From contig CAIYUV010000122.1 of assembly GCA_903929475.1 (NCBI GenBank), forward strand, positions 1-64,000: DNA of 64,000 nucleotides. The letters run 5' to 3'. The position numbers and the translations under genes were made by a program. A model generated the notes under the pieces. That model ran no database searches. It saw nothing but the letters and a program-made list of their open reading frames with translations, and had not been told where the DNA came from. This document shows, piece by piece, positions 10,323 to 60,689 of the stretch (its first letter is position 1; every line of letters starts with the position of its first letter). The stretch comes from an uncultured Spartobacteria bacterium. GTDB taxonomy: Bacteria; Verrucomicrobiota; Verrucomicrobiia; Chthoniobacterales; Chthoniobacteraceae.

Positions 10323-10985
10323 ATGACGCGCCGACCGACTAAGTCTGTTCCCATGTTGCGCACGACCTTTCTCGCCGCCGTCCTCGCCTTCACCGCCGAT
10401 GCCGCGCCTCTGCCGCAGGCGCGCGCCAATGCGCTGCGCGATCAATTTGAAACACGACAGCGCGAGACGAAGACTTGGTCGGCAAATTTCACACAGACCG
10501 TTGCGATGCCGGGCATGCGCGAACCGGTCGTGAGCACTGGCACGCTGTCGTATCGCGCGCCGGAGCAACTGCGGCTCGATTTCACGAAGCCTGCGGATGA
10601 ATTCGTCCTCGCGCTGGGTGATCAGCTTTTTGTGCAAAAGGCGGGGAAAAAACCCGCGCTCAAATCGCTGAGCGGCGACAATGCGGGAAAACCCTTCCAG
10701 TCGCTGCTCGGCCTGCTGCGCGGCAAGCCGGTAGAGGAGGAGGCTTTTTACACAGCGGAAGTTTCGCGCGAGGCAGGTCGCTACATCGTGGTGCTCACGC
10801 GCAAGGCGGATGCCTCGGGCCGGATGCCGAAGCGCATCACCAACTCGATTGACGTGGAGTCGCTCGAAGTGCGCGAGGTGATTGTCGAACTGCCGAATGG
10901 TGGCACGCTCACGTATCGCTTCGACGAAATCGCACGCAACCGCCCGCTCGATGCAACCCGCTTCGCCGCACCCGCGATACGCTGA
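10323..10985 (+). CDS. LolA-like periplasmic lipid carrier
   Basis: The protein has a signal peptide (LRTTFLAAVLAFTADA). The mature part matches the LolA/LolB-like fold: TWSANFTQTVAMPGM, then TGTLSYRAPEQLRLDF, FVLALGDQLFVQKAG and a C-terminal VELPNGGTLTYRFDEI. Classic LolA ferries lipoproteins, but LolA-like proteins also sit in aryl-polyene and related lipid clusters, where they probably carry the acyl product to the outer membrane. Starts at 10323 or 10353 (MLRTTF) both give a usable signal peptide. The gene lies between a membrane protein and the ACP gene, so the pathway-specific carrier role is favoured over general lipoprotein transport. Confidence 0.75.
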   Translation: MTRRPTKSVPMLRTTFLAAVLAFTADAAPLPQARANALRDQFETRQRETKTWSANFTQTVAMPGMREPVVSTGTLSYRAPEQLRLDFTKPADEFVLALGDQLFVQKAGKKPALKSLSGDNAGKPFQSLLGLLRGKPVEEEAFYTAEVSREAGRYIVVLTRKADASGRMPKRITNSIDVESLEVREVIVELPNGGTLTYRFDEIARNRPLDATRFAAPAIR

Positions 10986-43409: not shown

Positions 43410-43523
43410 GCGGGGTTTTATTGTAGCCAGAATGGTATTTTGCAGAAGGCAGGGATCTGCATCCGCTTTCGCGGCTCGGCGCTCCCGATTGACGCCGCCC
43501 CTGCTCTGCGGCAGGCTGGCGCG

Positions 43524-43886
43524 GTGAAATCAATCCTCACACTGCTTTTGCTCCTCGCCGCCGTGCTGCCTTCCGGCGCGGGCGAGCGGGTCGTGCTTTA
43601 TGTGACACTGCTGGAAAATACGACCACCGAACTGAGCGACGGCGCGAAGTGGCAGATGGACAAGGGCGACTGCTTTCCCGTCGTTTCCTACAAGGAATCG
43701 CACACCATGGTGATCCTCCAGCTCGCGAGCGCGACGTTCATGATCCCGGCGGTAAAAACACGGGTCGTCTCGGAAAAAGAACTGCCCGTGGCAATCGCCA
43801 ATTATCGCGCAAACGTGAGCACCTACATCAACGGCGTCGCCGCCCGGTGGCGCGCAGCGGCGGAATCCGGAAAGGCGCCGCAATGA
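43524..43886 (+). CDS. Small exported hypothetical protein
   Basis: 120 aa from a GTG at 43524 that gives a signal peptide (VKSILTLLLLLAAVLPSGAG); the ORF-track start 84 bases upstream masks it. The mature part has alternating strands (RVVLYVTLLENTTTELSDGAKWQM; CFPVVSYKESHTMVILQLASATFMIP) and a helical end. The stop overlaps the glutaredoxin start (ATGA), so it leads a four-gene operon. No family recognised. Confidence 0.6.
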   Translation: MKSILTLLLLLAAVLPSGAGERVVLYVTLLENTTTELSDGAKWQMDKGDCFPVVSYKESHTMVILQLASATFMIPAVKTRVVSEKELPVAIANYRANVSTYINGVAARWRAAAESGKAPQ

Positions 43887-44125
43887 AACTCTTCGTCAAA
43901 GTCTGGTGCCCGTGGTGCGTCTCGGCGCGCGAGTGGCTCGACAAGCGCGGCTACCAATACGAACTCGTGGACGTGGAGGAAAACGACGCCGATTACGAAG
44001 AGATGCGCCGCATTTCCGGCCAGAGCAAAACGCCGACGCTACTCACGCACGACGGTCTCGTGCTGCCGGATTTCGGCCCTGAGGAACTGGCTGCTTTCAT
44101 CAAGGAAAACAACATCACGCCCTAG
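43883..44125 (+). CDS. Glutaredoxin-like protein
   Basis: 80 aa, the size of classic glutaredoxins. Redox motif CPWC (Cys9, Cys12) in VKVWCPWCVSAREWL, cis-proline in SKTPTLL, and the C-terminal helix ELAAFIKEN. It reduces disulphides or glutathionylated proteins in the cytoplasm. Start overlaps the preceding stop; 3 bp gap to the next gene. The ORF-track start is inside the previous gene. Confidence 0.88.
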   Translation: MKLFVKVWCPWCVSAREWLDKRGYQYELVDVEENDADYEEMRRISGQSKTPTLLTHDGLVLPDFGPEELAAFIKENNITP

Positions 44126-44128
44126 GAA

Positions 44129-44944
44129 ATGTTCGACCTTCTGCTCATCGCTGGCGTGTTTGTGCTCAGCCTTTCGCTGCGCTCGCTGAACAGCGTCCTC
44201 CTTCGCAAACTGGGCACATTTGGTTTTCTCGCCACGTCGTTCCTCATCGGCTGGCGCTTCACGGAATCCTGGCCGATGGGGATTTTGTTCGCGAGCTTCT
44301 GGCTCGTGTGGCCGTGGTATGAACTCATCACGCGCGTGCGCAAAATCAAAATGCCTGCGGACAAAACGCTGCGGCACAAAACGCCGCCGCACCGCGAATT
44401 TTTCCCCGCGCTCGCCGACCTGACCGAGGAGATCGAGGGCGAAGGCTACGAACATCTCGAAGACCTCGGGCGCGATTGGGACGAGACCCAGCAGTTCTTC
44501 CGCATCTTTCACAAAAACGACGAGCGCGCGCAGGCGGTCATCTGCCTCATCGAGCAGGAAAGCTACGCGTTTTACTACATCCGCCTCATCTCCCGTGCGC
44601 AGGACGGGACGGTGTGGACGACGTGGAATTATCCATTTTCGCTCAACCTCAAAGTCGCCCCCGAGTGGCGCATGAATCGCGAGAGCGGCGACAAAACTTT
44701 CATCCAGCTCCTCGACAGCCACCGCGCCTGCCTCGAACGCAACGGAGTCCGCCCGGAAAATCTTCTCGAAACAAATCCTCTGGAACTTGCCGATCAGCTT
44801 CAGTCCGAGCAGCAGGCGCAAATCGCGCACAACGTCACCGCCGGCATCCTCGCCAAGGGCAAGGACGGCGAGATCCGCTACACATGGCGCGGGCTGCTAT
44901 TTATCTGGCTGCAATTTCTCCGCGACCTCGTGAGACTCCACTAG
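44129..44944 (+). CDS. Hypothetical protein with N-terminal membrane segments
   Basis: 271 aa. Two N-terminal hydrophobic segments (FDLLLIAGVFVLSLSLRSL; GFLATSFLIGWRF..GILFASFWLVWPWY) precede a cytoplasmic ~190-residue domain that starts FPALADLTEEIEGEGYEHLEDLGRDWDETQQFFRIF and includes VICLIEQESYAFYYIRLISRAQDGTVWTTWNYPFSLNL. No known family recognised. It lies between glutaredoxin and deoC with gaps of 3 and 2 bp, a tight operon of apparently unrelated functions. Confidence 0.65.
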   Translation: MFDLLLIAGVFVLSLSLRSLNSVLLRKLGTFGFLATSFLIGWRFTESWPMGILFASFWLVWPWYELITRVRKIKMPADKTLRHKTPPHREFFPALADLTEEIEGEGYEHLEDLGRDWDETQQFFRIFHKNDERAQAVICLIEQESYAFYYIRLISRAQDGTVWTTWNYPFSLNLKVAPEWRMNRESGDKTFIQLLDSHRACLERNGVRPENLLETNPLELADQLQSEQQAQIAHNVTAGILAKGKDGEIRYTWRGLLFIWLQFLRDLVRLH

Positions 44945-44946
44945 TC

Positions 44947-45822
44947 ATGCCCGCGATTGATCAAGTGATGGCCAAGGAACGCGCATCCGCGTTCACCAAA
45001 CGCAGCATCAAAAACGCGTCGAAACTCGCTGGCCTGAAAATGGTCGTCTCGATGATGGACCTCACCACGCTCGAGGGAAAAGACACGCCCGGCAAAGTCG
45101 CCTACCTCTGCCGCAAAGCCATCCAGCCCGCAGAGCCGCGCCTCGGAGTTCCATCGTGCGCAGCCGTCTGTGTTTATCCGAATCTCGTCCGTGCCGCGCG
45201 CCCGTTCGTTGGCGACAGCGGCGTGAAAGTCGCGGCAGTCGCCACCGCATTTCCCAGCGGCGCGATGCCACTGCGCGTGAAGCTCGCCGACGTCCGCATG
45301 GCCGTGGTTTTCGGCGCGGATGAAATAGACATGGTCATCGATCGCGGCGCATTCCTCGCGGGCGAACATGGGCGCGTGAGCGATGAAATCGCCGCCGTGA
45401 AAGAAGCATGCGGCCACGCGCACTTGAAGGTGATTTTGGAAACCGGCGAGCTGCACAGCTACGACAACGTCCGCATCGCCAGCGATCTCGCCATGCACGC
45501 AGGCGCGGATTTCATCAAGACCAGCACCGGTAAAGTCGCGCCCGCCGCCACGCTGCCCGTCACGCTCGTCATGCTCGAAGCAATCCGCGATTTCTTTTTC
45601 GCCACAGGCCGCCGCATCGGCATGAAGCCCGCAGGCGGCATCCGCACCGCAAAGGAATCACTCTCCTACCTCGTGATGCTCGCCGAGACGCTCGGCGACG
45701 ACTGGATGACGCCCGACCTGTTCCGCTTCGGAGCCAGCACCCTCGCAAACGACGTCGTCATGCAAATCGCAAAACTCACCGACGGCAGCTACCAGGGCGC
45801 GGATTATTTTTCGCAGCCGTAG
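44947..45822 (+). CDS. deoC: Deoxyribose-phosphate aldolase
   Basis: 291 aa. The Schiff-base lysine is in ADFIKTSTGK, and GMKPAGGIRTAKE carries the second active-site lysine. Further family motifs: VCVYPNLV, VAAVATAFPSGAMP, EIDMVIDRGAFLAG and KVILETGEL. The enzyme cleaves 2-deoxyribose-5-phosphate to glyceraldehyde-3-phosphate and acetaldehyde. The ~40-residue N-terminal extension is as in longer DeoC variants. Start at ATG 44947; the longer ORF is out of place. Confidence 0.93.
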   Translation: MPAIDQVMAKERASAFTKRSIKNASKLAGLKMVVSMMDLTTLEGKDTPGKVAYLCRKAIQPAEPRLGVPSCAAVCVYPNLVRAARPFVGDSGVKVAAVATAFPSGAMPLRVKLADVRMAVVFGADEIDMVIDRGAFLAGEHGRVSDEIAAVKEACGHAHLKVILETGELHSYDNVRIASDLAMHAGADFIKTSTGKVAPAATLPVTLVMLEAIRDFFFATGRRIGMKPAGGIRTAKESLSYLVMLAETLGDDWMTPDLFRFGASTLANDVVMQIAKLTDGSYQGADYFSQP

Positions 45823-45839
45823 CCTGAAGTCGCTTGCGC

Positions 45840-50010: not shown

Positions 50011-51183
50011 TCACCGCGCGCTCGCCGATGCCAGCGAACGCAGCAGACGCGCGACCACCGCCTCCCGCCGCAGCAGGTGCGGCAACAATTTTCCCGGCAG
50101 AGCGCCGAGCAGCGGGATGTTCAATAAACGAAATAAACGCCCAGCCAGCCGCGATGGACGCACACCGCGCTCATTCGCGGACCGCCGCGCAGACTCGTAG
50201 GCAGCGACGAGATTTTTTTCCCCTGCGAGAATCAGCCGTGCAAGCGCGACGGCGTCCGCGATGGCCATGTTCGCTCCCTGCCCGCCGGCGGGCGTGACCG
50301 GGTGGATCGCATCGCCGAGCAGCACCGCGCCCTCGACGCCATAGCGCTCCGCGTGTCCCCACGGACGGCGAATGCGCGTGAAGCCGTGCGGAAATCCGCA
50401 CGCGCGCAATTCCTGCGGCACTTCGGCGGCGTGTGAAAAGATCTGCTCCAATTCCGCGGCAAGCACATCATCCGCGCAACCGGCGCGGACAACACCCAGA
50501 GCCGCCGCCGCCGCACCGGGCAATGGCATGACGCCAAACGCCATCAACCCACCGCCACGCTGCGCGGGAAAATACAGTCGCACCACGTCCGGTGCCCACT
50601 GTGCGGGCCACGGCAGCCCGCGCACGATGAACTCCACGGGAAACTCCCGGCGCTCAATACCAATGCCGCAACCCTCGAGCACCCGCGATTCACCGCCATC
50701 ATCGCCGACGGTGAGCGCGGCCTCCACCTCGAAGGTCTCGCCGTTTTCAATAACACGCGCCTGCAAACCGCACACGCGCATACCATCGCGCAGCAGTCCG
50801 ATCACTTCGACGCCACGCCGCACCTCTGCGCCGCAGATTCCGAGCAGGGTTTCGCGTGTGTGATTTGGCTGGGTAAGAAAAGGCTGCACGCCCGCGCGGG
50901 CGAGTGTCACGCGCGTGACGAACGGCTCGACGCGTCCGCCTTGATCCACGGTGATGCCCCCGAGCGGGCGCAGGCACTCGCTTTCCCAAAATTCGCGGGG
51001 CTTCAGTGCAAAAAGCGCAGCGGCAGCGGGTGGCCAGAGAACCTCCGGGCGCAAAAACGGCGGCGGCCCCTTTGCCCGCTCAACGATGAGCACGCGCTTC
51101 CCGCCGCGCACCAGCAGCGCCGCGAGCAGCGTGCCGCCGATGCCTCCACCGGCGATGACCACATCTGTTTGAATAACAGCCAT
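50011..51183 (-). CDS. FAD-dependent monooxygenase (UbiH/PHBH-like)
   Basis: 390 aa from ATG 51183. FAD motif VVIAGGGIGGTLLAALLVRGG, middle motif LTVGDDGGESRV and the FAD/NAD loop GAVLLGDAIHPVTPAGGQGANMAIADAVALA, which is the classic class A flavin monooxygenase signature. Likely aromatic or polyketide hydroxylation; substrate unknown. It begins 31 bp after the histidine-kinase stop and is probably the third gene of that operon. The ORF-track start (51306) overlaps the kinase. Confidence 0.88.
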   Translation of the reverse strand: MAVIQTDVVIAGGGIGGTLLAALLVRGGKRVLIVERAKGPPPFLRPEVLWPPAAAALFALKPREFWESECLRPLGGITVDQGGRVEPFVTRVTLARAGVQPFLTQPNHTRETLLGICGAEVRRGVEVIGLLRDGMRVCGLQARVIENGETFEVEAALTVGDDGGESRVLEGCGIGIERREFPVEFIVRGLPWPAQWAPDVVRLYFPAQRGGGLMAFGVMPLPGAAAAALGVVRAGCADDVLAAELEQIFSHAAEVPQELRACGFPHGFTRIRRPWGHAERYGVEGAVLLGDAIHPVTPAGGQGANMAIADAVALARLILAGEKNLVAAYESARRSANERGVRPSRLAGRLFRLLNIPLLGALPGKLLPHLLRREAVVARLLRSLASASAR

Positions 51184-51214
51184 GCGTGAAATCTCGTCTG
51201 AGGAAAACCCGGCG

Positions 51215-52582
51215 TCACGCTTTTGTCGCGGGCTTTCCAGGAGAACGGAGACGAATTTCAAATTCGGTGATTTCCTCGTCCGAGCGCAGCAATCGTAAAT
51301 CGCCACCCTGCGCTCGTGCGAGTTCGCGTGCGATGCTGAGGCCGAGACCGTGACCGACGCGCTGTTCGTCGCTCTCGCCGCGCGTGAAGCGGTTGAAAAT
51401 AATCGGCATTTTTTCGCCGGGGATCGGCGTGCCGGTGCTCGCGACGATAATGAATACGCCGTCCTCGTCGGTGCCTGCGCTGACGTTGATGAGCCCGCCG
51501 TCGCGATTATATTTCACCGCGTTTTCGAGAAGGTTCAGCAGCACCTGCTCGACGCGCGCCTCGTCGGCGATGGCAGGAATTTTTTCCGGCAGGTCGTGCT
51601 CGATGCGGAGTTTGCGCTGGGCGGCGAGGACTTCGGCATCTTCGAGACAACCTTCGATGAGTTGACGCAAATCGGTTTCCACCGCTTTGACGACAAGACG
51701 CCCGGCATCGGCGCGCGCGAGGAGGAGCAGACCCTCAGCCAGCGAGGAAAGACGGCGCGTCTGCTGGAGGAGTTCATCCAGCTCGCGACAATGCTCGGGC
51801 GAAAGGCCGGGCTGCCGCATGAGGGACTCGATGCACGAACGCATGACGGTGATTGGCGTCTTGAGTTGGTGTGATGCGTCGGATGAGAAGCGAACGGCTT
51901 GAGTATATCCTTTTTCGAGCTGCTCGAACGTTTTGTTGAGCACCTCGGTGAGTTCGTGGATTTCATCATTCGCAGCAGGCACAGGCAGCCGCTGGTGCAG
52001 ATCTTCCGTGGTGATGCGCCGCGCGGCATCGGTGATTTTTTTCACAGGCCGCAGAGCGCGGACGGCCACCAGCAGTCCGCCCGCGAGACTGAACAGCAGG
52101 ATCGCCGGCAGCGAAATGATGATGGCGTGTGAGACACGGGTGAGCGTGGCATCGTCATTCGCGAGCGACGCGCCGAGGTGGAGGGTGAGCGATTTGTGAT
52201 AGTAGGTGCCGACACGGTAGGGCCGTTCGCGGAAAGTGAATTCGTGCAACTCCGGCTGGCCGTCATGAAGGCCCGTGTCCTTGAGGTTGGGGGAGCGGTA
52301 GAGCGTCTGTTTGTTTGCGCCGATGATCTCGATCAAATGCGAGGCGGCGGACGGCGGCATGAGATCGTCCGCGATGAAAGTGCGCGCTTCAGCGGGGCCG
52401 CCGGGGCGTTGATCGAGGTTCCAAAAAATCTCGCTCGCCACGCGATCCATGCGCTGATCCAAAATCTCCATCAGTTCGTATTGGAGAAAGTAGCGGATGC
52501 CGAAGAGCGCAAGCCCCATCGCTCCGCCGGCCATCAGTGCGGACCAAAGCGCGACTTTGACCCGCAAGGGCAGTGCGCTCAT
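51215..52582 (-). CDS. Sensor histidine kinase
   Basis: 455 aa. TM1 ~10-30, a periplasmic sensor region ~35-150, TM2 ~152-172 (AIIISLPAILLFSLAGGLLVAV), HAMP (RALRPVKKITDAARRITTEDLHQRL), HisKA with the phospho-acceptor His in FSSDASHQLKTPITVM, and HATPase with N box LLNLLENAVKYNRD and G box GHGLGLSIARELA. Start overlaps the regulator stop (ATGA). The signal sensed is unknown. Confidence 0.93.
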   Translation of the reverse strand: MSALPLRVKVALWSALMAGGAMGLALFGIRYFLQYELMEILDQRMDRVASEIFWNLDQRPGGPAEARTFIADDLMPPSAASHLIEIIGANKQTLYRSPNLKDTGLHDGQPELHEFTFRERPYRVGTYYHKSLTLHLGASLANDDATLTRVSHAIIISLPAILLFSLAGGLLVAVRALRPVKKITDAARRITTEDLHQRLPVPAANDEIHELTEVLNKTFEQLEKGYTQAVRFSSDASHQLKTPITVMRSCIESLMRQPGLSPEHCRELDELLQQTRRLSSLAEGLLLLARADAGRLVVKAVETDLRQLIEGCLEDAEVLAAQRKLRIEHDLPEKIPAIADEARVEQVLLNLLENAVKYNRDGGLINVSAGTDEDGVFIIVASTGTPIPGEKMPIIFNRFTRGESDEQRVGHGLGLSIARELARAQGGDLRLLRSDEEITEFEIRLRSPGKPATKA

Positions 52583-53256
52583 GCCGCCGGCGCTTCGATT
52601 TTATAGCCGACGTTGCGCACTGTCTGGATGAGCTTCACGGGGAAATCCTCATCCACCTTACGGCGCACGCGCTGGATATACACGTCCACGGCGTTCGTTT
52701 CGTCATCGAGCGCGCTCTTCCACACGTGCTCGCACAATTCCGTGCGCGTAAAGGCGCGGCCCATGTGGCGCATGAGGAAATTGAGCAGCCCGAATTCGCG
52801 CAGCGAGAGGTAGAGTTTGGTCGTGCCGCGAATCACATCGCGTGTGGTTTCATTCAACACGAGATCGCCGACGCGCAGCAGCGGCGAACTGTCGGTGCCC
52901 TTGCGCCGGGTGAGCGCATTCACACGGGCGATCAATTCCTCCATCGCAAACGGCTTCGGTAAATAATCGTCGGCGCCGAGATCGAGGCCGCTGATGCGGT
53001 CGGGCAGTTCGCCGCGTGCAGTGATGATGAGCACCGGCGTGGCGACGCTGCGGTTGCGGATGGCTCGGAGGATTTCGATGCCGTCGCAACCCGGCAGCGC
53101 CAGATCGAGAAGGATGATGTCAAACGGGCGGGTCGTTGCGGCTTTGAGACCTTCGTCGCCTTTGTGAATGGTCTCCACCGTGTGGCCCTCGGCTGTTAGG
53201 GCTTTCGCGATGTAACGGGCGATTTTTTCTTCGTCTTCGACTAGTAGTATTTTCAT
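52579..53256 (-). CDS. OmpR/PhoB-type response regulator
   Basis: 225 aa. Receiver: acidic pair DEE, phospho-acceptor Asp51 in IILLDLALPGCDG, Thr in VLIITARGE and Lys in DDYLPKPFAMEEL. C-terminal winged helix: LSLREFGLLNFLMRHMGRAFTRTELCEHVWKSALDDETNAVDVYIQRVRRKVDE. Pairs with the kinase gene it overlaps; first gene of the operon that also holds the FAD monooxygenase. Confidence 0.95.
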   Translation of the reverse strand: MKILLVEDEEKIARYIAKALTAEGHTVETIHKGDEGLKAATTRPFDIILLDLALPGCDGIEILRAIRNRSVATPVLIITARGELPDRISGLDLGADDYLPKPFAMEELIARVNALTRRKGTDSSPLLRVGDLVLNETTRDVIRGTTKLYLSLREFGLLNFLMRHMGRAFTRTELCEHVWKSALDDETNAVDVYIQRVRRKVDEDFPVKLIQTVRNVGYKIEAPAA

Positions 53257-53394
53257 GGGAGGTGAGTGTTATTTTTCAAATACATGAGCAGTTTCCGCCG
53301 ATGTGCAATAACGGCGTTGATTGCTAACGAATTTTTTACAACTCCCGCACGAAGTCCTGACAACTCCGTTATCACAGTGCGCTACGTTCGCGGC

Positions 53395-54534
53395 ATGAAA
53401 ACAACACGCACACTAGCCATCGCCACGCTCGCTCTCTGCGGGCTTTCCTTCACCCACGCTTCGGACGCCAAGTCCGACCAGCCGGTAGTTTAAATCGCCA
53501 TCCTGCTCGATAACTCGGGCAGCATGAGCGGGCTGATCGCACAGGCAAAAACGCAGCTCTGGAATATCGTCAACGAATTCATCTCCGCCAAACAGGACGG
53601 CAAAGCGCCGCGCGTGCAGGTCGCGCTTTTTGAATACGGGCTGAATAATGCACCTTCGAATGTCGGCTATATCCACCAGCTTTCGCCGCTCACGGACGAC
53701 CTCGATAAACTGAGCGAACAACTTTTCTCCATCTCGCAGAAAAATGCCGGCAGCGAGGAGTATTGCGGCTGGGTCATCCGCGATGCGGTGGAGAAACTCG
53801 AATGGGACAATTCGCCGAAGACTTACAAGGCGATCTTCATCGCAGGCAATGAACCTTTCACGCAAGGGCCGGTGAAATACACCGTCGCGTGCAAGGCAGC
53901 GATCTCGAAGGGAATCATCGTGAACACCATCCACTGCGGCCCGGAAAACGAGGGCATCAGCGGCATGTGGAAGGACGCGGCGGCAATTTCCGACGGACGT
54001 TTTCTCATCATCAACCACAACGCGCAGGTCGCCGCGATCCCTGCACCGCAGGATAAGGACATCGCCGAATTAAACGCAAAACTGAACACGACCTACGTGG
54101 CCTACGGTGCAAAAGGTGCAGAAGGTAAAGGCAGGCAGATCGCTCAGGACGCGAACGCCGCTGCGGCACCGGCAGCCCCCGAAGTGATTGCCAAGCGTGC
54201 CGCGAGCAAAGCCTCCGCGAACTACGACAATGGTTCATGGGATATAGTGGATCGCGCAAAGCAGAAAGGCTTCGACATCAGCAAGGTCGCGGATGCGGAA
54301 CTACCGGAGGAAATGCGGAAGATGAGCGTGGAAGAGCGCAAGACCTACGTGGAAAAGAAACGCACCGAGCGCGAGGAACTCCAAAAGAAACTCAGCAGCC
54401 TCGCAGCCGAGCGCGACAAATACGTCGCAGAAAAACAAAAGGAGCTGAGCAAGAATCCGACGCTCGCGAGCGCAGTCACCACCGCCGTGCGCGAACAGGC
54501 GGAGAAAAAGGGCATGAGCTTCGAGAAGAAATAG
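53395..54534 (+). pseudogene. von Willebrand factor A-domain protein with in-frame TAA
   Basis: ATG 53395 opens a signal peptide (MKTTRTLAIATLALCGLSFT) and reads to SDQPVV, where TAA at 53491-53493 interrupts the frame. The next residues, in the same frame, are IAILLDNSGSMSGLIAQAK, the vWA MIDAS motif DxSxS. The frame then runs for ~345 further residues with vWA content (VQVALFEYGL; YKAIFIAGNEPF; IIVNTIHCG) and a helical Lys/Glu-rich C-terminus. One C-to-T change (CAA to TAA) would explain the stop. Restart at ATG 53524 would lack the signal peptide and the MIDAS motif, so the protein is probably non-functional as read, unless the stop is a sequencing error or read through. Confidence 0.85.
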
Positions 54535-54538
54535 CGGG

Positions 54539-55549
54539 CTATTTTAAGAGCCAGTCGGCCCAACCCGGCGACTCGGTAAGTTCAACTTTGTCCGCAGGCT
54601 GGCGCTGAAAAAACGCGGCGGCCTTCCACCGGGCGACGAGCTTCAGGCCTTGTTCGGGACCAATCACGCTGCACGCGGTCGAGATGCCCGCCGTCAGGCC
54701 GTCGCGGGCGATCACGGTCACGAGATTGTGGTCGGTGAGAGGCTGGCCTGTGCGTGGATCGAGGATGTGCGAGTAGCGCTTCCCGCCGATCTCCAGTCGC
54801 TGAAACCGATCTCCGCTCGTCGAAATTGCAGCATTCGCAATCTCCACGACAGGCGGCGCCGGTTTGGGCGCATCACCCTCCGCGTCGAGCGAACCAATCT
54901 CCACGCGCCAGCCTTTTCGGCCCGGCGGCGCGTCGCCCGCAACCGTGTCTCCACCAGCAGCCACTAGTGAAATAGGTAGTCCTTTTTCCTTCAACACTCT
55001 CACTGCCTGATCGCAAGCATAGCCCTTCGCGATGGAGCCGAGATCTAAGCGCATCTGTGGAGCGAGCAAATCCACTGTGCGCTTTTTTTCATCCAGTCGC
55101 ATTTTTTTAAAGCCAACGCGGTCTCGCATCTCCGCGACCAATTCTTGTGACGGCAGTTCCTTCTTCCGCCGTGCCCGCCGCCAAACGCTCGTGAGCGGCC
55201 CGCAAGTCACGTCGAATGCTCCATCCGTCTGCACCGCCAGTTTCTGCGCGCGTGATAGCACCGTCCACAAATCTTCGCTAACCTTCACCGCTTTGCCTCC
55301 GCCCGAGCTTTGCGAAAGTTTCGCCAGTTCGCTGTCGTCCTCGTAATCGCTGAAGATTGCATTCAACGCCTCGATGCGTGTGAACGCTGCATCCGCCGCT
55401 GCACTCGCATCACTTTCCTTTTCAGCAAAGATCGTGATCTGAAATGGAACTCCCATCTCCGCTTTCTCAAACGCAAACTTTTGCAATTCCACCGCCCTTG
55501 CAGAGAGCGCTGCGCAGATGGTGACAAGAAAGCGAATTGTTTTCAGCAT
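54539..55549 (-). CDS. apbE: FAD:protein FMN transferase ApbE
   Basis: 336 aa with an N-terminal signal (IRFLVTICAALSARA). ApbE motifs: FAFEKAEMGVPFQITIF, DGAFDVTCGPL, LDLGSIAKGYACDQAV, LVAAGGDTVAGD and YSHILDPRTGQPL, with the C-terminal VTVIARDGLTAGISTACSVIG. It transfers FMN covalently to threonine in partner flavoproteins outside the membrane. It starts 4 bp after the mutS stop on the same strand. No Rnf/Nqr or NosR partner is visible in the window. Confidence 0.92.
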   Translation of the reverse strand: MLKTIRFLVTICAALSARAVELQKFAFEKAEMGVPFQITIFAEKESDASAAADAAFTRIEALNAIFSDYEDDSELAKLSQSSGGGKAVKVSEDLWTVLSRAQKLAVQTDGAFDVTCGPLTSVWRRARRKKELPSQELVAEMRDRVGFKKMRLDEKKRTVDLLAPQMRLDLGSIAKGYACDQAVRVLKEKGLPISLVAAGGDTVAGDAPPGRKGWRVEIGSLDAEGDAPKPAPPVVEIANAAISTSGDRFQRLEIGGKRYSHILDPRTGQPLTDHNLVTVIARDGLTAGISTACSVIGPEQGLKLVARWKAAAFFQRQPADKVELTESPGWADWLLK

Positions 55550-58244: not shown

Positions 58245-60689
58245 ATGCGCCACTGGCTGCACTTTATCCTCAGCTTTATTTCTCTGACCCTCGTTCACGG
58301 GCAGGCGTTTTTACCTTTTCCAACAAATTTTCCGCCCAGTTTTTCCTTTGATGAAACTTACCGAGACGAAGTGATCGGAGACCCGTTCTCTCCGGGTGAT
58401 TATCTCACGAGATCACGGGGCACCATCACAATCGGCGCCACCGGTTCGCTGGATGGTTTTGATGTCAGCAACCCTGATAATCTGGATATTTTCAGCCCTT
58501 ACGAAATTACCATTGGCGAGTTCACCATGAGCGGAACCCTCGGAGACGATCCAGATTACGACCCTCTCGACAGCAAACACAATCGTTCGATCACCATCCC
58601 AGTTCTGGGCTACGACGACAATGGGAACGAAGTGAATGCAGGCTCCATGAATATCGCGTGGACATCCGCACGAGTGAACTTTTCTTTCAGCGTATCAGAC
58701 CCGCTTCTCTATGGAGTTGATCAGCCTTTAACATCGGTTGTCAGTGGCGACTACTACCCCGATGTGAACGAGCCGAGCATTAATCGAAATGATCTTCTGG
58801 CAAAGATGGTATTCGGTCCTTTTGGTATGGATATAAGGAGCTGCTACATCCTTGGCAGCGCAAGCGCCAAGCCTGATCCGCAGGGCCGTGTAACGGACAA
58901 CCTCTCGGATGTTCATGTCTATGGGGCGATTGATAGTATTGCTCCGATAGTGACAATTACCCAGCCAGCCGCCAATGCAATCGTGACCACCAATGACGTC
59001 ACTGTGGACGGCAAATACAATATCGTGGGCAAGGCTTCGGATACGCGTTCCATCTTTGGTCAGACAATGCCGGGTGCTGTTGATACCGTGGAGGTGCAGG
59101 TCGGCACACAGGCAAATCCAGGGACTTTTATGTTGGCACAACTCGATAATGCCGGAAACTGGATATTGCCAAACGCCCAACTCGACCCCGGAAAAAACCG
59201 CGTCTCCGTGCGCGCCACGGACATAGACGGTAATGCGATCACCACAGCACCGAGGGAGTTCACTTTTAGCAAGCAGGGCACCATATCCGTCACTTGCGCC
59301 GCGACAGGCTACAGCATGGCTGACAACGGAAAGGTCGCAGGCACGGTCACCGGTGCATTTTTCGTATCGCCGGGCAAAAAAATCACGATGGTCGTCGGTC
59401 AGGTGCCTTTTCAGGATTCGCGCGGCGGCGTGACGGCCGGCCAGATTTTTTCGGTAAAAGCCACACCCGCACCCGGCTCGGTTTTCAACGGGTGGGTGGG
59501 GAAAATCAACAACGTCACCGTGCTGACCGCAGTCACCGAGACGCTCGATTTCGAGACAAAACCAAATTTGGTTCTTACGGCCAATTTCGTTCCCGATCCC
59601 TTCATCACCAACATTCGCGGCAGTTACTATGGACTTGTCACTGGCGGCAGCGCGGTCGAGCGGGGATTGTTCAAGCTAGTCCTCTCAAAATCCGGTCTTT
59701 TTACGGGCACTGTGCAAATCGGCACCCTTACGTTCCCGCTCAAGGGCAAGATTCTCGGCAACGGGTTTTGGACAACCACCATCAAGAAAAAGGGCGGTGC
59801 TGCATACACCATCACATTGAACCTCACCTTGAGCCAGGCCGGAGACCGGCAGATCAGCGGTGCCGTCACAGCCACCGGTATCAATTCCACAATCACTGCG
59901 GACCTCAATGACTGGCACAAACCCAAGGGCGTTGACCTTGGCAAAGTTTCCGATGCTTATGCGGGATTTTACAACGTGCTCATGCCCCCGGCACTCACCA
60001 ACAACGACGCGAACTTCCCAACTGGAATTGGTTATGGTCGTGCGAACATTGGCAAGCTCGGCACTGTGAAATTCGTAGGCAAATTCGGGGACGGCTCGCC
60101 TGTAACAGCGGGCACCAAACTCGCCAAGCGCAATTCGGGCGCTGTAGTTTTCCCATTATTTTTTGCGCTGGATAAATTGCACGGCAATGTTTCCGGACTC
60201 GTAACCTATGACAATACACAGCCTAGCAGCGATCTGACGGCATCCCTAGACTGGGCCGAGCCGCTCACCACAGGCGCAGACCCGGATCCATTCATCGGAA
60301 ATATCGCGCTTCACGGCTCCCACTACGTAAAGCCCGCTTCCAATACACGCATCATTCTTCAATCAACAGGCGGCATCGGAAAATTATCTCTCGCAGCGCC
60401 ATCATACACAAAACCGGCCAAACCGCCGGCCGTGGATCTTGCCCTGAATTTCAATGCCGCGACGCTCGATGCCACAAAGCAAAGCGTCGGGCCACTCGGG
60501 GCGGAATTGGTAACACTCAAATTCAATACAAGCACCGGTCTTTTCACCGGCAGCTACAAGGATGCCCTGCTGAAAAAAGTCATTCCATTCTCTGGAGCAG
60601 CTTCACGCAAGGCAAACAGCGGGGCAGGCGAAGCGGGTGGTGTTTTTTTGCGTGGCAACAGTTCAGGTAGCATTCGTTTTGGACCATAG
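58245..60689 (+). CDS. Large secreted beta-rich surface protein
   Basis: 814 aa with a signal peptide (MRHWLHFILSFISLTLVHGQA). The N-terminal third is beta-rich and acidic. Around 230-345 an Ig/Big-like domain (APIVTITQPAANAIVTTNDVT..NAGNWILPNAQLDPGKNRVSVRATDIDGN) is followed by an InlB-repeat-like segment (VFNGWVG..LTANFVPDPF). The C-terminal 340 residues contain repeated GxFTGTV / GLFTGSY-type modules typical of verrucomicrobial surface proteins. Base composition is less GC-rich than housekeeping neighbours. Adhesion or matrix role is inferred. A prepilin-like gene follows. Confidence 0.7.
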   Translation: MRHWLHFILSFISLTLVHGQAFLPFPTNFPPSFSFDETYRDEVIGDPFSPGDYLTRSRGTITIGATGSLDGFDVSNPDNLDIFSPYEITIGEFTMSGTLGDDPDYDPLDSKHNRSITIPVLGYDDNGNEVNAGSMNIAWTSARVNFSFSVSDPLLYGVDQPLTSVVSGDYYPDVNEPSINRNDLLAKMVFGPFGMDIRSCYILGSASAKPDPQGRVTDNLSDVHVYGAIDSIAPIVTITQPAANAIVTTNDVTVDGKYNIVGKASDTRSIFGQTMPGAVDTVEVQVGTQANPGTFMLAQLDNAGNWILPNAQLDPGKNRVSVRATDIDGNAITTAPREFTFSKQGTISVTCAATGYSMADNGKVAGTVTGAFFVSPGKKITMVVGQVPFQDSRGGVTAGQIFSVKATPAPGSVFNGWVGKINNVTVLTAVTETLDFETKPNLVLTANFVPDPFITNIRGSYYGLVTGGSAVERGLFKLVLSKSGLFTGTVQIGTLTFPLKGKILGNGFWTTTIKKKGGAAYTITLNLTLSQAGDRQISGAVTATGINSTITADLNDWHKPKGVDLGKVSDAYAGFYNVLMPPALTNNDANFPTGIGYGRANIGKLGTVKFVGKFGDGSPVTAGTKLAKRNSGAVVFPLFFALDKLHGNVSGLVTYDNTQPSSDLTASLDWAEPLTTGADPDPFIGNIALHGSHYVKPASNTRIILQSTGGIGKLSLAAPSYTKPAKPPAVDLALNFNAATLDATKQSVGPLGAELVTLKFNTSTGLFTGSYKDALLKKVIPFSGAASRKANSGAGEAGGVFLRGNSSGSIRFGP

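Follow-up and report, generated by a model that had tools for sequence, protein, structure and literature searches.

The window, a stretch of 64,000 nucleotides, lies on the 92 kb contig C122 of a draft Verrucomicrobiota genome (G000; 4.5 Mb in 295 contigs) and carries on its plus strand, at 53395–54534, a 380-codon frame that is open throughout but for an interior TAA at 53491–53493, in the middle of the contig (53.5 kb of 92 kb). Translation of 53395–54534 reads MKTTRTLAIATLALCGLSFTHASDAKSDQPVV, a stop, and then IAILLDNSGSMSGL...SFEKK up to the final stop, that is, 32 codons, TAA, a further 346 open codons and, at the end, TAG. The interior TAA, followed by the base A, has a signal-peptide-like start on its 5' side and, on its 3' side, the DNSGS motif of a vWA domain; the protein after it begins IAILLDNSGSM. 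Undivided, the frame is predicted to encode an exported protein with a vWA domain and a helical extension at its C terminus. The features are as follows:

53395–53490, plus strand: first 32 codons of the vWA gene (5' fragment), resembling a signal peptide (MKTTRTLAIATLALCGLSFTHAS-DAKSDQPVV), with the same residues in the related genome G007
53491–53493, plus strand: premature TAA, at a codon that is CAA or CAG (Gln) in orthologues
53494–54534, plus strand: 3' remainder of the vWA gene (346 codons and TAG), with a vWA domain bearing DNSGS and a helical C-terminal extension
53378–53639, no strand: identity tract of 262 bp, in which G007 is identical except for the stop-making base; the flanks are ∼87% identical
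53524–53526, plus strand: first in-frame ATG past the stop, a possible restart, lying 3' of DNSGS; the same ATG is present in G007

The vWA gene stands alone, with a divergent two-component regulator pair on one side (51215–53256, minus strand) and a convergent ApbE gene on the other (54539–55549). The regulator adjoins the vWA gene also in G008, in G002 and in G007, the nearest relative, which matches the freshwater Chthoniobacteraceae MAG record RH-23may17-247. The gene is single-copy, no second copy being present in the G000 assembly, and the species of the window is represented by one genome in the collections searched.

Several other differences from G007 were recorded. A 431-aa gene on the minus strand (50011–51306; FAD-dependent oxidoreductase-like by eye) is absent at the collinear place in G007, where the alignment jumps from 10756 to 10776 opposite window positions 50013–51237. 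At 58245–60689, a secreted-looking 814-aa gene shows 74% identity and a dS of about 1.5, against 0.35–0.7 nearby, with synteny kept. On contig C52 (48520–49710, in locus L116), a CusB-like membrane-fusion gene matches G007 only to residue 398 of 526 and is, judged from this alignment, truncated or rearranged in G000. Contig C142 carries a dispersed repeat of ∼130 bp (L119:7944–8086) that matches itself on both strands (palindromic), with about 15 copies across G007 contigs, including one in L032 near 15447.

The initial annotation had described a vWA frame split by a single TAA before the MIDAS motif, and translation together with the conserved downstream protein confirms this, although the sequence after the stop runs to 346 residues and not the further 340 it gave. 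Its expectation of a glutamine codon at the site was borne out by the relatives, which have CAA or CAG in all eight genus and family orthologues; only the direction of the change had been misstated, as it is TAA-to-CAA, not CAA-to-TAA, that restores glutamine. Gln was likewise found at this position in 25 of 25 further class-level loci read and in 18 of 19 wider homologues from genome_contigs (the sole exception being GAC), with some loci counted in more than one of these lists. A stop at this codon occurs in no orthologue (0 of 8 near orthologues). Because the relatives carry a Gln codon, and G007 (protein identity 91%) has CAA between identical adjacent codons, the change is, by alignment, a private single C-to-T nonsense substitution.

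The downstream part is conserved over its full length, with 91% identity to G007, 67–72% to six other genomes of the genus and 62% to one genome of another genus of the family, and more distant family members were found across the class. By reading of the sequences, a similar hydrophobic leader opens every genus and family orthologue. Compared with G007, the whole frame has a dN of 0.050 and a dS of 0.463, and the resulting dN/dS of 0.108 indicates that it is not a chance open frame. Besides the TAA it carries no other lesion, which, with the low dN/dS, is as expected if the loss is young. No signal of relaxed selection was seen on the G000 branch, to which an outgroup assigned 9 synonymous and 11 non-synonymous changes, against 9 and 8 for G007. 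A paralogue sharing the lesion was considered and rejected: of the interior-stop flags, which fall in L011, L045, G339, G277 and G176, the two examined, those in L011 and L045, are normal gene ends.

The family occurs in Verrucomicrobiota, Planctomycetes, Bacteroidetes and others. Pfam VWA (PF00092) matches the window's member at E = 1.6e-4, with a score that falls short of the gathering score; of the 18 alignment members, 17 match at E values up to 0.01; no close sequence relative of the family was found in the PDB. For the downstream part, AlphaFold2 predicts a vWA fold (pLDDT 89) whose first strand, residues 2–6, lies directly past the stop, and Foldseek matched this model to many vWA and integrin I domains (E = 6e-6 to 1e-4), including BatB, integrins and VWF.

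vWA domains generally bind partner proteins via a metal at the MIDAS, which in its full canonical form comprises DxSxS, then Thr, then Asp (PMC9976466). The DxSxS loop is present in the family, all 18 sequences sharing D6, S8 and S10. In the third loop they share GNE (G118, N119 and E120), and no Thr is invariant among them, so the metal site may not be of the standard kind and is possibly modified in this family. Two distant homologues, L010 and L011, have VGDA where the vWA family of window positions 53494–54531 has GNE.

As in a nonsense pseudogene, the interior stop thus lies in a frame that the orthologues keep open. Among 76 shared genes (30,181 codons), the vWA gene is the only one with a genuine interior stop; other stop flags were over-extended start choices, frame-end stops or shadow frames, and for three of the flagged genes the check went down to single residues. 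Since no other genuine interior stop was found in these 76 genes, the assembly is not generally error-ridden.

This sole interior stop falls just where, over the 98 kb compared, the identity island is strongest. Within the 262 bp of 53378–53639, 261 bases are identical to G007 and the single difference is the stop-making base, whereas the flanks differ by about 13% (34 mismatches expected in the tract, 1 observed). The edges of the tract are abrupt and mismatch-dense, and relative to its flanks it is the strongest island in the G000–G007 alignment (score 34, the next reaching 21). Over codons 1–82 the two genomes differ only in the stop and in the third base of codon 82, where the tract ends; among the other codons that specify the same residue in both, about 31% (83 of 265) are silently different. 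At four-fold sites, excluding one at the tract edge, 0 of 44 differ inside the tract and 46 of 119 elsewhere in the gene (Fisher p = 3e-8). This contrast is absent from other species pairs (e.g. 13/30 vs 57/90 and 15/27 vs 49/89), and the identity is therefore not due to sequence constraint. Because the stop is the only difference in the tract, it arose after whatever event gave the two genomes the same 5' end. Two histories would fit these data: either the 5' end passed between species not long ago and was mutated afterwards, or it is a patch introduced by chimeric assembly, with one wrong base.

Divergence from G007 is mosaic elsewhere too, with blocks of about 92–95% and about 70% identity, which suggests recombination between the species. 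Low-divergence blocks of several kb were seen at window positions 43475–45827 and at C122 72412–76021 (dS 0.12–0.19, against a background of 0.35–0.7); the small first gene of the former has a dS of 0.68.

With moderate confidence, we favor a recent private C-to-T nonsense substitution in a single-copy exported-vWA gene, leaving a young null allele, or pseudogene, in the population sampled. A 262-bp stretch would have been exchanged recently between the window's species and that of G007, after which the C-to-T change would have turned the Gln codon into TAA, the base being real in the living population. The ribosome would then release a 32-residue leader peptide, and no vWA domain would be made. 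Provided that the base is real, the gene is most sensibly read as having lost its function, the absence of the protein being something we infer from the sequence. What speaks against the null allele is that it needs two independent rare events at one place, where a single assembly patch, causing both, would be more expected.

Such a patch is a strong competitor, to which we assign a somewhat less than even chance. A co-occurring G007-like strain may have supplied the read or k-mer path that closed a thin-coverage gap, with one wrong base, or the stop may be a plain consensus error, the living gene being intact in either case. The near-identical 262-bp island with its abrupt edges amid about 13% divergence would be accounted for in this way, as would the location within it of the one interior stop of 76 genes; the genome is a draft of 295 contigs, the tract is probably about as long as a short-read insert, and about 2.7% of random single changes in the stretch would create a stop. 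A patch would, however, need k-mers shared between both species at both edges, and assemblers usually discard single-copy k-mers. Moreover, short recombination tracts are common in bacteria, and the divergence from G007 is not mosaic at this gene only.

We consider it very unlikely that the stop belongs to a standing on/off polymorphism of the lake population, in which short gene-conversion tracts would shuttle the 5' end and null and intact alleles would be exchanged repeatedly between species.

Similarly improbable is programmed read-through or internal restart yielding a secreted and a cytoplasmic form. Read-through with a restart form was one of four possibilities listed in the initial annotation; the other three, a recent nonsense mutation, a strain-specific loss and a sequencing error, all keep substantial probability. 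The frame is intact past the stop and a modest hairpin follows it (z = −2.0), but the stop is present in no orthologue, and G007 carries the same hairpin sequence after a sense codon. TAA is also the least leaky stop, with reported read-through of about 1e-5 to 9e-4 in enteric bacteria (PMC6764699), a low rate at which any read-through product would be made. Neither the stop nor its context (TAA followed by A) is of a leaky kind. No Rfam match and no repeats were found near the stop. No stop-reading anticodon (TTA, CTA or TCA) is present among the 45 tRNAs found, a set that is incomplete (no Asp tRNA was seen) and in which three Gln tRNAs have the anticodon CTG and one has TTG. Restart at the ATG at 53524, residue 11 of the downstream part and thus past the motif, would give a product without the first beta strand, the DxSxS loop and the signal peptide, and inspection found no Shine–Dalgarno-like sequence upstream of this ATG.

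The idea that TAA is read as Gln in G000, or by a suppressor tRNA, agrees with the Gln codon expected at the site but has a negligible probability, as TAA ends 34 of 77 G000 genes in the compared regions and is interior to no other shared gene, which, with no stop-reading tRNA found, all but rules out a changed genetic code, and no suppressor is among the 45 tRNAs, a set from which, like the Asp tRNA, a suppressor gene might be missing.

The favored explanation, a recent one-base nonsense change, is thus an ordinary one, with no sign of programmed use. If real, the null allele means that an exported vWA protein kept by most members of the genus has recently been lost here. The locus is mostly of value as a warning: an isolated interior stop in a draft genome from a metagenome can sit exactly in a seemingly borrowed stretch, and it is the relatives that expose it.

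The protein resembles known vWA proteins (PF00092; BatB, 3ibs; the Bacteroides aerotolerance protein, 4jdu) in its predicted vWA fold and in the DxSxS loop after the first strand. It differs from Bat proteins, which have membrane helices, in its leader and helical C-terminal extension, and from the usual vWA domain in the lack of an invariant Thr and in the invariant GNE where, by alignment, the downstream MIDAS Asp sits. In common with known bacterial single-base nonsense pseudogenes, the gene combines one substitution, a frame intact on both sides, intact orthologues and otherwise purifying selection. Unlike in those pseudogenes, the short tract around the stop is almost the same as in another species, and this makes an assembly patch likelier here; the placement of the stop within a stretch apparently shared with another species is what the present case adds.
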